Of a DNA stretch of 64,000 bases, positions 42,865 to 48,803 are shown piece after piece; within the stretch, counting starts at the first letter, position 1, and every line of letters begins with the position of its first letter. Made by a program: the position numbers and the translations under genes. A model generated the notes under the pieces. It saw nothing but the letters and a program-made list of their open reading frames with translations. It ran no database searches and was not told the origin of the DNA. This DNA comes from Gammaproteobacteria bacterium (GTDB lineage: Bacteria; Pseudomonadota; Gammaproteobacteria; JAABTG01): NCBI GenBank assembly GCA_017999615.1, contig JAGNLM010000005.1, positions 62,001 to 126,000 on the forward strand, given 5' to 3'.

Positions 42865-43764
42865 TTACGCGAGCGCCGTGTCCAGCAGCATCATGACGAT
42901 GAAGCCGCCCATCAGGCCCAGGGATGCGAACTGCTCGTGGCCCTTGCGGTGGGTCTCCGGGATGATCTCGTGCGAGACCACCCAGATCATCGCACCGGCG
43001 GCGAAGCCGAGGCCCAGGGGGTAGAGCAGGGCGAGCCCGGTGGTGAGCAGGCTACCGACGACGGCGCCGATGGGCTCCGCCAACCCCGTGAGGGCTGCGA
43101 CCCCGGCGGCCCGGAACGGGCTGACGGCCGCGGCGCGCAGGGCGACGGCTACCACGAGACCCTCCGGGACGTCCTGAACGGAGATGGCCGCCGTGAGCGG
43201 CATGCCGACGGCGTTGTCGTTTCCGCTGAAGGCGACCCCGATCGCCATGCCCTCCGGGAAGTTGTGCAGGGCAAGGGCGAAGACCATCAGCCAGAGCTTC
43301 CGCAGACCCGCCACGTCAGGGCCGTGATGACCCACGGCCACGTGGTCGTGAGGGATCAGCCGGTTGGCGAAGAGGAGCGCGAGCGCACCGAGCGCGAGCC
43401 CGAAAGACACCCAGCCCGCTCCGAGGGCGCGGTGGCCGAGCATGCCGTCGGCTGCTTCGACGCCCGGGATGATCAGGGAGAAGCACGAGGCGGCCGCCAT
43501 GACCCCGGCACCGAAGCCCAGCATGACGTCCTCCGAGCGGGGGGAGATGCGTTCGACCAACACCGCGGGAAGGGCGCCCAGGGCCGTCGCCAGGGCGGCC
43601 AGGAATCCCCCCTGTACGGCCTTGCCCATGGGGGTGGCGAGGTCGGTCGCCCCCTGCTGCACGGCGACCCAGACGATGCCCAGGGTCAGCGCCACGCCGG
43701 GCCCCCACCAGGCGACTCCCCACCCTGGGGGCGCCCCGCGTGGTCCCGCGCCGGGCTCAGGCAT
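42865..43764 (-). CDS. ZIP family metal transporter
   Basis: Divalent-metal (Zn, Fe or Mn) importer of the inner membrane. 299 residues with about eight hydrophobic helices. The family signature is HNFPEGMAIGVAF in helix 4 (about 166) and QDVPEGLVVAVAL in helix 5 (about 196), which form the binuclear metal site. A His-rich loop (HDHVAVGHHG) lies between helices 3 and 4. The ATG at 43764 lies inside the end of the ankyrin gene (8-base overlap), so it is the third gene of a minus-strand operon with a secreted protease-like protein and a periplasmic ankyrin protein. Confidence 0.92.
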   Translation of the reverse strand: MPEPGAGPRGAPPGWGVAWWGPGVALTLGIVWVAVQQGATDLATPMGKAVQGGFLAALATALGALPAVLVERISPRSEDVMLGFGAGVMAAASCFSLIIPGVEAADGMLGHRALGAGWVSFGLALGALALLFANRLIPHDHVAVGHHGPDVAGLRKLWLMVFALALHNFPEGMAIGVAFSGNDNAVGMPLTAAISVQDVPEGLVVAVALRAAAVSPFRAAGVAALTGLAEPIGAVVGSLLTTGLALLYPLGLGFAAGAMIWVVSHEIIPETHRKGHEQFASLGLMGGFIVMMLLDTALA

Positions 43765-44950
43765 GCCGCCCGAAGCGCTGGTGCAGTCCGCGCAGCGCCT
43801 CCAGGAGGCGCTGCAGGCGCGACCTCTCCTTTACGGCGGCCCGGCGGAGAAGGAAATAGAGCAGCAGGGCCGTCAGCACCACCCCGAGCACCACGGCGCC
43901 GACGAGGGTGGCGGGGGAGTTGCCCGGACCGGTCGCTGTCCCCCCACGGGCCTCGGCGCGGGGTGCGCCGGCGTCGTCGGGACGTGGTGCGGCTGCGGCA
44001 GTCTCCAGGAGGCCCACCAACTCCGGCGCACCCAGGCGGCGGGCGAGATTGAGCGGCGTCTCTCCGCTCATGCCCACGGCCCCGAGGTCGGCCCCCGCCG
44101 CGAGCAGGAGCTTGACCATCTCGGCGTCCCGCCTCGCGACCGCGCTGTGCAGCGGGGAGCTGCCGTGCTGGCTGGCGACGTTCACCGAGGCCCCCCGGTC
44201 GGTGAGTAGCCGGGCCGTCCCGACCTGCCCGTGGCGCACCGCCCAGTGCAGGGGGGTGACGCCAATCCGGTTCTGCCGGTCGATCTGCGCCCCGCGGTCG
44301 AGCAGGCAGGCCGCGGTCTCCACGTGCCCGGCGCCCGCCGCGTGGTGCAACGGCGTGAGCCCCCGGCGGTTGACCGCGTTGGGGTCCGCGCCGGCGCGGA
44401 TCAACTGCTCGCAGAGCTTTGACTCCCCGAACGCCGCCGCCTCGTGCAGGGCGCTGTCCCCCGCGTGGTCGGGGTTCTGGCGGTCCTCGCGCTGGCTCAC
44501 GGCGCCGACGGCGGCGCCGTGCTCGAGCAGGAGCTTCACCAGGGCGAGGTCCCGGGTGCGCACCGCCAGGTGAAGCAGGGGGTCCCCCGTTCCGGGGGGC
44601 AGGCGGTTCGGGTCGGCCCCGGCCTCCAGCAACACGCGGGTGACCCCGGTGTGGCCTCGCTGGACGGCGGTCACGAGCGGCGGCTCGCCGGCACCCGTGC
44701 CGTTCGGGCTCGCGCCCTCGGAGAGGAGCCGCCGGACCTCCTGCTCGTCGCCGTCGGCCGCTGCGTTGGACAACCGGTCGGGCGCCGGCCCCTGGGTCGG
44801 CGCAGCCGACGAGAAGAAGGGTACCCAGGGCTGGAGCAATTGCCCGGCCTCCTCGGCGACCCCGGAAACCGGGGGCGGCTGTGCCCAGCCGCTGTCGAGG
44901 AGCAGGAAGGCCCCGAGCGTGCCGCACGCGAGACACCAGCCCCGGTTCAC
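43757..44950 (-). CDS. Ankyrin-repeat protein with signal peptide and C-terminal membrane anchor
   Basis: Unknown function, 397 residues. A signal peptide (1 to about 24, ending GWAQ) is followed by a linker and about eight ankyrin repeats (about 58-318), for example GLTPLHHAAGAGHVETAACL and GVTPLHWAVRHGQVGTARLL. A disordered Pro/Ala linker, one transmembrane helix (about 346-367) and a basic cytoplasmic tail (RRAAVKERSR...) complete it. The ankyrin domain should lie in the periplasm. GTG 44950 overlaps the protease stop as GTGA, and the stop overlaps the ZIP gene. The repeats probably bind a partner, perhaps the protease (inference). Confidence 0.85.
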   Translation of the reverse strand: MNRGWCLACGTLGAFLLLDSGWAQPPPVSGVAEEAGQLLQPWVPFFSSAAPTQGPAPDRLSNAAADGDEQEVRRLLSEGASPNGTGAGEPPLVTAVQRGHTGVTRVLLEAGADPNRLPPGTGDPLLHLAVRTRDLALVKLLLEHGAAVGAVSQREDRQNPDHAGDSALHEAAAFGESKLCEQLIRAGADPNAVNRRGLTPLHHAAGAGHVETAACLLDRGAQIDRQNRIGVTPLHWAVRHGQVGTARLLTDRGASVNVASQHGSSPLHSAVARRDAEMVKLLLAAGADLGAVGMSGETPLNLARRLGAPELVGLLETAAAAPRPDDAGAPRAEARGGTATGPGNSPATLVGAVVLGVVLTALLLYFLLRRAAVKERSRLQRLLEALRGLHQRFGRHA

Positions 44951-46053
44951 TTCGATGCCCTCGGCGGCTTCGAGGACAGCCCTCGCCGAGCGAGCCAGCG
45001 GTCGATCTGCTCCCGCAGGACGTCGGTGAGCTCCCCTTCGACGCGGACCGCCCGCAGAAAGTCGCCGAAGTACTGGCAGGCCGTCGTCTCCGGCGGCGTG
45101 TCCGGGTAGTGTCCGTAGAGGATGATGCGGTTGGTCATGAACGCGAAGGTCTCGTCCAGGTTGCAGCGCCGCTGTTCCACGTCCCTCGCGATCATCGTCG
45201 TGAGCCTCTCCACCACCCGGAAACGCGGAGGGTTCTGGTCGCCGAGCTTCCACAGCTCGGCGGCCTCGCCGCTCCCGTGGATGAACTGGAAGTACTGCCA
45301 GAGCTTCGCCAGCATCTGGGCGGTGGCCTCGTCCGCCTCGAGCTGCAGTTCGGCGAGGTGGTCGTAGGCCTCGTCGAACCCCGTCTGCGGGGTGATCCCG
45401 TACTGGCGCAGGATGCGCACGATGTGGGCCGTGCACCGGTCCCAGGAAGGCACGGCGTCGGGCTCCAGGTAATCCGGGTCACGCTCCCGGATCTCCTCCA
45501 GATACAGCCCCTGGATAAAATAGGCGAGCGCCTCATTCACCTTGGTCTCGGAGTTGTACGGCGCGAAGCGCCCCTCCAGGAACAGGTGGTGCGCGATCGC
45601 GTGCACCGCCTCGTGGACGACGAAGCTCGCGGCGGTGTAGAGGCGCCCGCGGGCCTCCGGGGTATCCCCGCCAGACCCCTCGAACAGGCTCGCGCTGACG
45701 GCGAGCTCTCCGCTCTCGAAGTACTCGGCGGCTGGCCCACCGTCGCGGCGCACCTCGACCAGGCGCAGGTGGTGACCTGCACCGCCAATCCCGTGTGTGC
45801 GGAAGCGCTCGATTGCGCTGACGACGAGACTGCCCACATGCGTGCCCCGGAGGACTTCATAGAGCACCGTGACGCGCTCCGGAGAGAGAGGGGTCCGGGT
45901 CTCGTCCTCGCCGCGGGTCGGCGAGAGGAACCGGCATTCCTCGAGCTCGATGGCGGCGTCACCACTCGGCTCCACGTGCGCGGGGAGCGGAGTCGTCGCC
46001 AGGAGGAGGAGTAGAGGGAGCAGCCGGCGGAACAACGGCATATCCATCAGCAT
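44947..46053 (-). CDS. Secreted putative zinc metallopeptidase (HEXXH)
   Basis: 368 residues; I do not recognise a named family. A signal peptide (1 to about 25: FRRLLPLLLLLATTPLPAH) directs it to the periplasm or outside. FVVHEAVHAIAHHLF contains HEAVH (His147, Glu148, His151), the zinc-protease motif, and NEALAYF supplies a possible third ligand Glu at about 174, 23 residues later, the spacing of gluzincins. The mature part carries Cys at about 40, 214, 308 and 330 that could pair. Start ATG 46053; two further Met at codons 3 and 5 are possible starts. It leads the operon with the ankyrin and ZIP genes, 173 bp after mutS. Confidence 0.75.
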   Translation of the reverse strand: MLMDMPLFRRLLPLLLLLATTPLPAHVEPSGDAAIELEECRFLSPTRGEDETRTPLSPERVTVLYEVLRGTHVGSLVVSAIERFRTHGIGGAGHHLRLVEVRRDGGPAAEYFESGELAVSASLFEGSGGDTPEARGRLYTAASFVVHEAVHAIAHHLFLEGRFAPYNSETKVNEALAYFIQGLYLEEIRERDPDYLEPDAVPSWDRCTAHIVRILRQYGITPQTGFDEAYDHLAELQLEADEATAQMLAKLWQYFQFIHGSGEAAELWKLGDQNPPRFRVVERLTTMIARDVEQRRCNLDETFAFMTNRIILYGHYPDTPPETTACQYFGDFLRAVRVEGELTDVLREQIDRWLARRGLSSKPPRASK

Positions 46054-46092
46054 GTTGCGTGCGAGCCTCCCAAGACTTCCTGTACCGGTCCG

Positions 46093-46130
46093 CCAGGAAG
46101 CCCGGGAGGCAGCACCCCCGGGGTTCCTGG
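46093..46130 (-). terminator. 14-bp hairpin between mutS and the metallopeptidase gene
   Basis: 46093-46106 pairs with 46117-46130 over 14 positions with a single mismatch, leaving a 10-base loop, in the 173-bp gap after mutS. A second partner for the 46093-46100 arm, CTTCCTG at 46076-46082, gives an alternative smaller hairpin. No U-tract is present. It may terminate or attenuate mutS transcription. The rest of the gap shows nothing recognisable. Confidence 0.5.
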
Positions 46131-46226
46131 TGAAACTTTAGCGCATCCTGGCCCGGGCAGCGGCAGGTCTTCCGGTGAGCGGCGGCGGGCCGCCCGCGAC
46201 TCGGCCGCGGGGGGGCGCGGTCCCGG

Positions 46227-48803
46227 TCACCCCCGCCCGGCGAGCTCCCGCAGACGGTAGAGCGTGTCCAGGGCCTGGCGCGGGGTCAAGCGGTCGGGGT
46301 CCACCCGGCGCAAAGCGTCCAGGGCCGGTGCGGGGTCCGCGGTGGCGAACAGGTCGAGCTGCCGCCGGGGGGCACCGGCGTCGAGGGGGCGGGTCTCCAG
46401 CTCCGCCAGGCGAGCCCGCGCTCTGCCGACCACGGGGGCGGGTACGCCGGCCAGCGCCGCCACCTGCAAACCATAACTCTGGCTGGCCGGCCCTTCCTTG
46501 ACCGCGTGCAGGAAGACGATTCGATCGCCGTGCTCGAGCGCGTCCAGGTGCACGTTCGCCACTCCCTCGAGCGTGTCGGCGAGCACGGTCAGCTCGAAGA
46601 AGTGGGTGGCGAACAGGGTGAAGGCGCCGATCTCCCGCGCGAGGTGCTCGGCGCTCGCCCAGGCGAGCGCCAGGCCGTCGAAGGTGCTGGTCCCGCGGCC
46701 CACCTCGTCCACAAGGACCAGGCTCTCCCGGGTCGCGTTGTGAAGGATGTTGGCCACCTCGGTCATCTCCACCATGAAGGTGGAGCGCCCTCCCGCCAGG
46801 TCGTCCGCCGCCCCGATGCGGGTGAAGATGCGGTCCACGGGCCCGATGACGGCGCGCTCCGCGGGCACGAAGCTGCCGGTGTGGGCCAGCAGCACGATGA
46901 GCGCCGCCTGGCGCATGTAGGTCGACTTCCCGCCCATGTTGGGGCCGGTGACCACGAGCATCCGGCGTCCCGCAGCCAGTTCCAGGTCGTTCGGCACGAA
47001 CGGTCCGTCGAGGCAACGCTCCACGACCGGGTGGCGGCCCCGCGTCACCAGGATCCCCGGCTCTTCGGTCAGCTCCGGCCGGGTCAGGTCCAGCGCGTCG
47101 GCCCGCTCCGCGAGATTGGCGAGGACGTCGGCCTCCGCCACCGCCTCGGCACAGGCCAGCAGATCCGCGAGATGCCCCGCGGCCCCCTCCAGCAGGTCCG
47201 CGTACAGGGTACGCTCGCGCGCGAGCGCTCGTTCCCGCGCGCTGAGCACCCGGTCCTCGAAGGCCTTCAGCTCGGGGGTGACGTAGCGCTCGACGCCCTT
47301 CAACGTCTGCCGGCGGACGTAGTCGGCCGGGGCGTTCGCCGCCTGGGCGCGGCTCAGCTCGATGTAGAAGCCGGAGACGCGGTTGTAGCCCACGCGCAGG
47401 CCGGGGATTGCGCTCCGGGCGCGCTCCCGGGCCTCGAAGTCGGCGAGCGCCTGTCCCGTGTCCCGGTCCAGGGCGCGCAGCTCGTCGAGCTCCGGGTCGT
47501 AGCCGTCCGCGATCACGCCCCCGTCGCGCACCGTGGGCGGAGGCGACTCGACCAGGGCCTGCTCCAGGCGCTCGCGCAGCTCCGGGAACGGGCGCACCGC
47601 CTCGGCCAGGGCGCCGAGCCGCGGGTCCCCGGCGGCGCCCAGGACGTCCCGGAGCTCGGGAAGCACCGCGAGGGCGAGCCGGAGCTGGACGAGGTCGCGG
47701 GGACGGGCGGAGCGCAGGGCCACGCGGGCGAGCACCCGCTCGAGATCGCCCACCGCCCGCAACGCGCAGTCGAGCGCCTCCCAGAGCCGGTCACCCAGGA
47801 GCGTCTCGACCGCCTGCTGGCGCCCCCTGAGCGCGGCCCGGTCGCGCAAGGGGCGGGCCAGCCAGCGCCGGAGCAGGCGGGCGCCCATCGGGGTCCGCGT
47901 CGCGTCCATCACCTGCGCCAGCGTGTTCTCCCGGCCCCCGGCGAGATTGACCTCGACCTCGAGATTGCGCCGGGCGACGGGGTCGACGTACAGGCTGTCC
48001 TCCCGGCGCTCGACCCGCAGGCCCCGGACGTGGGGCAGCGCAGAGCGCTGGGTCTCGCGCGCGTAGATGAGCAGGCTGCCGGCGGCCCCGACGGCCGCAG
48101 CGAGGCCCGCGCAGCCGAAGCCGGCGAGGTCGCGGGTCCCGAAGTGCTCGGAGAGCAGGCGCGTCGCCGCCTCGGGGTCGAAGTGCCAGGGTGGGCGCCG
48201 GCGCAGGGCGGCGCCCGGGGCCCCGGCCGGCAACGGACCGGTCTCCGGGACGAGCAGTTCGGCAGGCTGCAGCCGGGCGAGCTCGGCCGCCAGTCCCTCC
48301 GAGCCGTGCCCCTCGGAGGCGTCCCCCTCCATGACGGTCAACCGCCCGCTGGCGAGGTCGAGCGCCGCGGCGCCCCAGCGCCCACCGAGCACGTGCGCCG
48401 CGACGAGCAGATTGTCCCGGCGCTCCTCGAGGAGGGCGTCCTCGGTGACCGTGCCGGGGGTGACCACCCGCGTCACCCTCCGTTCCATCGGACCGCGCCC
48501 GGGAACCTCCCCGAACTGCTCGCAGATCGCCACCGACTCGCCGTGGCGCAGCAGCCGTGCCAGGTAGCCGTCGACCGCGTGGGCCGGCACCCCGGCCATG
48601 GGGATGGGCTCGCCCGCGGTCTGTCCCCGGCGGGTGAGCGCGATGTCGAGCAGCGCCGCGGCGCGCCGGGCGTCGTCGAAGAACAGCTCGTAGAAGTCCC
48701 CCATGCGGTAGAAGAGCAGGCAGTCGGGGTGCTCGGCCTTCAGCCGCAGGTACTGCTGCATCACGGGGGTGTGGCGGGAGAGGTCCTCGGGGCTGCTCCG
48801 CAT
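46227..48803 (-). CDS. mutS: DNA mismatch repair protein MutS
   Basis: Mismatch-recognition ATPase, 858 residues (E. coli 853). The N-terminal mismatch-binding domain has [21 protein letters not shown] (landmark), with the Phe-X-Glu of the YELF segment that stacks on the mismatch. Connector, lever and clamp domains follow, then the ATPase: Walker [15 protein letters not shown], Walker [17 protein letters not shown], and [12 protein letters not shown]. The C-terminal tail has [17 protein letters not shown] 48803 matches the family start. It is divergent from htpG with about 100 bp between. Confidence 0.97.

Follow-up and report, generated by a model that had tools for sequence, protein, structure and literature searches.

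Three genes follow one another on the minus strand of the window, by which we mean the whole 64-kb stretch of DNA analysed here. Read in order from 46053 to 42865, they encode a secreted orphan protein of 368 aa that carries an HEXXH motif (46053..44947, minus strand), a secreted ankyrin protein of 397 aa with a GTG start (44950..43757, minus strand) and a BbZIP-like metal importer of up to 299 aa whose start is uncertain (43764..42865, minus strand). The trio is flanked by mutS and by a convergent PALP-family gene resembling cysM, and a relative, genome G001, carries the same three genes between the same flanks.

Gene junctions and operon structure

The stop of the HEXXH gene and the start of the ankyrin gene overlap by 4 nt, GTGA (44947..44950, minus strand), and the ankyrin stop and the ZIP start possibly overlap by 8 nt, ATGCCTGA (43757..43764, minus strand); both stretches are identical in the relative. 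A preliminary description of this DNA had reported overlaps of 4 and 8 bases. The first is as described, whereas the second is uncertain because it assumes that ZIP begins at the ATG at 43764. In the ZIP of the relative, 24 residues are inserted directly behind this ATG, and a crude codon-composition caller placed the ZIP start at an internal GTG (43695), so that either the ATG or an internal GTG such as this one may be the true start.

We are confident that the trio forms one operon, and its genes are probably translationally coupled. The preliminary description went further and took the tight coupling as the sign of a single system. The layout and the conserved junctions agree with this view; however, gaps of -4 or tighter are common in the 64-kb window (8 of 38 same-strand neighbour gaps, ~21%, with a crude gene call), and overlap alone is therefore weak evidence for a functional link.

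An orphan secreted protein with a gluzincin-like pattern

The product of the first gene has the motif attributed to it and is, by its sequence, a predicted exported protein. Its signal peptide, read by eye, is typical and covers approximately residues 1-25, HEAVH occupies residues 147-151, and the candidate third ligand, E174, lies in NEALAYF, separated from the second His by 22 residues. The segment HEAVHAIAHH brings together four His within 10 residues, and the four Cys of the protein (40, 207, 297 and 326) are all conserved in the relative. None of the 30 differences between the two proteins falls in residues 95-199, and this longest unchanged stretch, of 105 residues, holds both HEAVH and NEALAYF (permutation p=0.001). 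Over codons 97-199 the two genes differ by 18 nucleotide changes and by no amino-acid change.

Shuffling the mature protein at constant composition yields an HEXXH by chance in 4.9% of cases, and HEXXH followed at 15-35 residues by NExx[A/Y], a pattern chosen post hoc, in 0.01%. Among the ~50 gene models of the window, one other HEXXH protein was found, which is RseP/RIP-like.

Searches of Pfam, NCBIfam, PHROGs, PADLOC and the PDB returned no significant match to the protein, and neither did the profiles of known zincin families or those of known periplasmic zinc-binding families. For the motif segment, Pfam offers at best a non-significant lead, DUF1570 (E=0.19), and a real DUF1570 protein aligned with the trio protein no better than chance. 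The other weak Pfam matches, among them Nitrate_red_del (E=0.03, which misses its cut-off), were rejected as short and lying outside the motif region.

The AF2 model of the mature protein built from the two sequences is of low confidence (mean pLDDT 48.9, pTM 0.50). It places two strands (mature residues 72-76 and 91-95) ahead of an HEXXH-bearing helix (107-134), and a Glu-bearing helix at 146-166, an order of predicted strands and helices that fits a zincin core. A zincin fold is not thereby established, since the model is weak and Foldseek found no match to it at E<=0.001. A single-sequence model was too poor (mean pLDDT 41), and its Foldseek matches are meaningless. The Pfam and structure checks proposed for this protein gave no family and a low-confidence model compatible with a gluzincin.

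The comparison that suggests itself is with the thermolysin-type gluzincins of the Peptidase MA clan. The trio protein resembles them in its HEXXH and in the Glu that follows the second His at a distance of 22 residues, the two lying in neighbouring predicted helices, but it shows no significant sequence or fold match to them. What is present is the gluzincin pattern, HEXXH with a third Glu in a downstream predicted helix, as a pattern only. The protein is most likely gluzincin-type and zinc metallopeptidase-like, and we infer that it is, somewhat more probably than otherwise, a metallopeptidase. If this were true, it would found a new zincin family.

A probable periplasmic ankyrin protein, with a predicted anchor in the trio and none in its paralogue

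The second product had been described as an exported ankyrin protein with about eight repeats and a C-terminal membrane anchor. The repeats were recovered, and signal peptide and anchor are predicted. Eight repeats can be counted by eye between approximately residues 60 and 318, and Pfam Ank scores 146.5 bits with six passing stretches. By inspection, the protein has a signal peptide with a cleavage site near GWA-Q; by hydropathy, a 19-residue hydrophobic segment begins at residue 350 and is followed by a basic tail. By the positive-inside rule, these features predict a type I topology. Repeats, signal peptide, C-terminal helix and basic tail together argue for a solenoid located in the periplasm and anchored in the inner membrane. 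A PADLOC match of this protein (PDC-M72A) was taken to reflect shared ankyrin repeats only.

Both genomes also contain a paralogue at 55% identity (L010 4860-5837 in G000:C4 and L011 1999-2976 in G001:C220), and alignment with it supports the GTG start of the trio gene. The paralogue is secreted, with a clearer signal peptide, and lacks the C-terminal helix, so that anchoring appears specific to the copy found in the trio. In both genomes its gene converges on a Na/Ca exchanger gene, and neither an HEXXH nor a ZIP gene adjoins it. The ankyrin family of this genus therefore does not require an HEXXH partner. All four ankyrin proteins have a segment EAGxxxQxWxPFF between the signal peptide and the repeats (residues 34-46 in the trio protein). 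An ORF with a Peptidase_S13 domain (D-Ala-D-Ala carboxypeptidase), the kind to which the ankyrin-inhibited Bd3459 of Bdellovibrio belongs, is found at L010 9273-11153, ~3.4 kb from the paralogue, with other genes intervening.

An ordinary ZIP transporter

The assignment of the third product to the ZIP family was borne out (Pfam Zip, 89.6 bits for a cut-off of 35.1). Its residues 38-298 match BbZIP with E ~3e-75, and the likeness to this Bordetella bronchiseptica transporter (PDB 5TSA/5TSB) extends over ~260 residues and all eight residues of the binuclear centre (PMC9873690). These are M99, H177, N178, E181, Q207, D208, E211 and E240 in BbZIP (PMC9873690), and M89, H167, N168, E171, Q197, D198, E201 and E230 here (8/8, at a constant offset of 10). 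By its sequence this is an ordinary, BbZIP-like ZIP.

The genome encodes no other ZIP. A ZnuA homologue is also present, which rules out ZIP as the sole zinc importer. Orthologues at 38-54% identity occupy 21 loci in 20 other genomes; all come from other genera, and one of these belongs to the same family. At none of these BbZIP-type loci does an ankyrin gene or a credible HEXXH gene lie within ~1.5 kb, and the operon context of the trio differs from theirs in this respect.

Conservation and distribution of the trio

Apart from the genome of the window, the relative is the one member of the genus that was searched; it was found a second time as CALMKJ010000022.1, which carries the label uncultured Ectothiorhodospiraceae bacterium. 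Between the window and this relative, protein identity is 92% for the HEXXH protein, 89% for the ankyrin protein and 91% for ZIP, with dN/dS values of 0.175, 0.232 and 0.213, respectively (0.134 for mutS and 0.051 for cysM). All three ORFs are genuine genes under purifying selection. It had been proposed that the HEXXH residues would be conserved among homologues and the three genes adjacent in related genomes. The one homologous locus keeps the HEXXH residues, the Glu as well, and the gene order, and both proposals survive weakly: with a dS of ~0.2 the relative is so close that conservation of motif and gene order constitutes weak evidence, adjacency persisting by default, and the other-genus BbZIP loci do not extend it.

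Outside the genus, the trio was found in none of the genomes sampled. The HEXXH protein has no homologue in three other genomes of the family, none in 369 genomes of the class and 398 of the phylum searched with a two-sequence profile, and no match in plasmids, phages or viral contigs. Six weak class-level matches were inspected and, as none had a convincing HEXXH, they were taken as noise. A scan of genome contigs from some 85,000 species, which detects close relatives only because it requires exact peptide patterns, returned the same relative alone. Moreover, the best matches of the cysM-like neighbour in other genera of the family reach only 41-44%, and the locus therefore appears to be genus-specific. 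Among the genomes sampled, the trio is restricted to one genus of uncultured Gammaproteobacteria.

Possible joint function

Taken as a whole, the reading that we favour, with a probability of about 0.4, is that a membrane-tethered ankyrin protein binds a gluzincin-like peptidase in the periplasm and that both are co-transcribed with a metal importer. The first product would be exported, with H147, H151 and E174 as predicted zinc ligands and E148 as the general base. The ankyrin protein would likewise be exported and, through its C-terminal helix, stay in the inner membrane with its solenoid exposed in the periplasm, where it would most likely bind the HEXXH protein or its substrate and restrain or position the former, in the manner of Bd3460. 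ZIP, working as BbZIP does, would bring zinc or a divalent metal like it into the cytoplasm. The parts of this reading do not stand equally: that the ankyrin protein binds the HEXXH protein itself is a tentative proposal, somewhat short of even odds, and a functional tie between ZIP and this pair is doubtful.

We favour a peptidase regulated by a tethered ankyrin because two exported products, one with a zincin-like pattern and the other of a binding type, head a self-contained unit, and because a precedent exists in Bdellovibrio. There, one operon encodes the endopeptidase Bd3459 together with its periplasmic inhibitor, the ankyrin protein Bd3460, which also acts on a further endopeptidase, Bd0816 (PMC4686830). 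The likeness lies in the combination, within one operon, of an exported peptidase (here peptidase-like) and an exported periplasmic ankyrin protein (PMC4686830). The differences are several: Bd3459, whose crystals contained bound penicillin G, is a DD-endopeptidase and not an HEXXH protein; Bd3460 has six repeats and the trio protein eight; and no ZIP gene is described with the bd3459/bd3460 pair (PMC4686830). Peptidase_S13 found no match in the HEXXH protein. Bd3459 is a serine enzyme of the S13 type, and Bd3460 is not known to be anchored. Another periplasmic ankyrin protein is AnkB of Pseudomonas, which goes with the catalase KatB. The trio protein resembles AnkB in being, by prediction, periplasmic and membrane-associated, and differs in its surroundings, since no catalase gene is adjacent; the genes around it are mutS, the HEXXH gene, the ZIP gene and cysM.

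A near rival, differing from our reading only in the functional link, is that the operon is incidental, its co-transcribed genes having unrelated jobs: a housekeeping ZIP importer, a stand-alone envelope ankyrin scaffold and a separate secreted enzyme. We consider this only slightly less probable. The frequency of overlaps of at least 4 nt in the window (8/38 same-strand pairs), the ankyrin paralogue that does without the other two genes, the 21 BbZIP-type loci devoid of HEXXH and ankyrin genes and the confinement of the trio to one genus among the genomes sampled all agree with it. It accounts less well for the preserved junctions, for a unit that, in both genomes, has the interval between mutS and convergent cysM to itself, and for two first products that share the periplasm.

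The place of ZIP in the operon raises the question of metal. The preliminary description had suggested that the importer supplies metal to a periplasmic protease, which fits poorly: ZIP proteins carry metal into the cytoplasm and out of the periplasm, and a ZnuA homologue is present as well. We do not favour supply to a periplasmic enzyme, as ZIP transport removes metal from that compartment. The same direction of transport suits another proposal, in which the HEXXH protein is a periplasmic metal-binder (buffer, chaperone or sensor) that hands zinc to ZIP, with the ankyrin protein as a docking platform near the transporter. This would account for the ZIP gene more readily than a peptidase, as the periplasm is where ZIP proteins take up their metal, and is consistent with the four closely spaced His and with an orphan protein whose catalysis is only predicted. 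However, HEXXH and a distant Glu in two predicted helices correspond to a catalytic zincin layout, and no known periplasmic zinc-binding family matches, so that we judge this proposal rather improbable. Slighter still is the likelihood that a lineage-specific, helical secreted protein with some other function contains HEXXH by coincidence. The 4.9% of shuffles with HEXXH alone, the lack of homology to any peptidase family and the weak prediction of the global fold point that way, but chance falls to ~1e-4 once the downstream NExx[A/Y] is added (post hoc), and no part of the protein is better conserved than the motif region.

The interest of the locus lies in the orphan secreted zincin-like protein and the membrane-tethered periplasmic ankyrin protein, not in the transporter. 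Should the two interact, they would constitute a further, independent periplasmic ankyrin-peptidase pairing, of a different catalytic class and membrane-anchored; should they not, the locus would be an ordinary ZIP operon with two lineage-specific secreted proteins. The most far-reaching version, a new single-genus family of zinc peptidases with a tethered periplasmic ankyrin inhibitor and operon-tied metal import, in which zinc availability and the envelope protease would be set together, is unlikely.

The region upstream of the trio

The intergenic region between mutS and the HEXXH gene (46054..46229, minus strand) yielded no match to a sigma-70-like promoter, which means little in a GC-rich genome. 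The ~60 nt upstream of the HEXXH gene (46054-46115) are nearly unchanged in the relative, and just upstream of this stretch we noticed an imperfect inverted repeat; these could represent a conserved leader or a mutS terminator. The mutS stops differ between the two genomes (46227-46232 in the window, 5908-5916 in L004): mutS of the relative extends to ATGCGCTAA, and the window retains ATGCGCTAA downstream of its own, earlier mutS stop.
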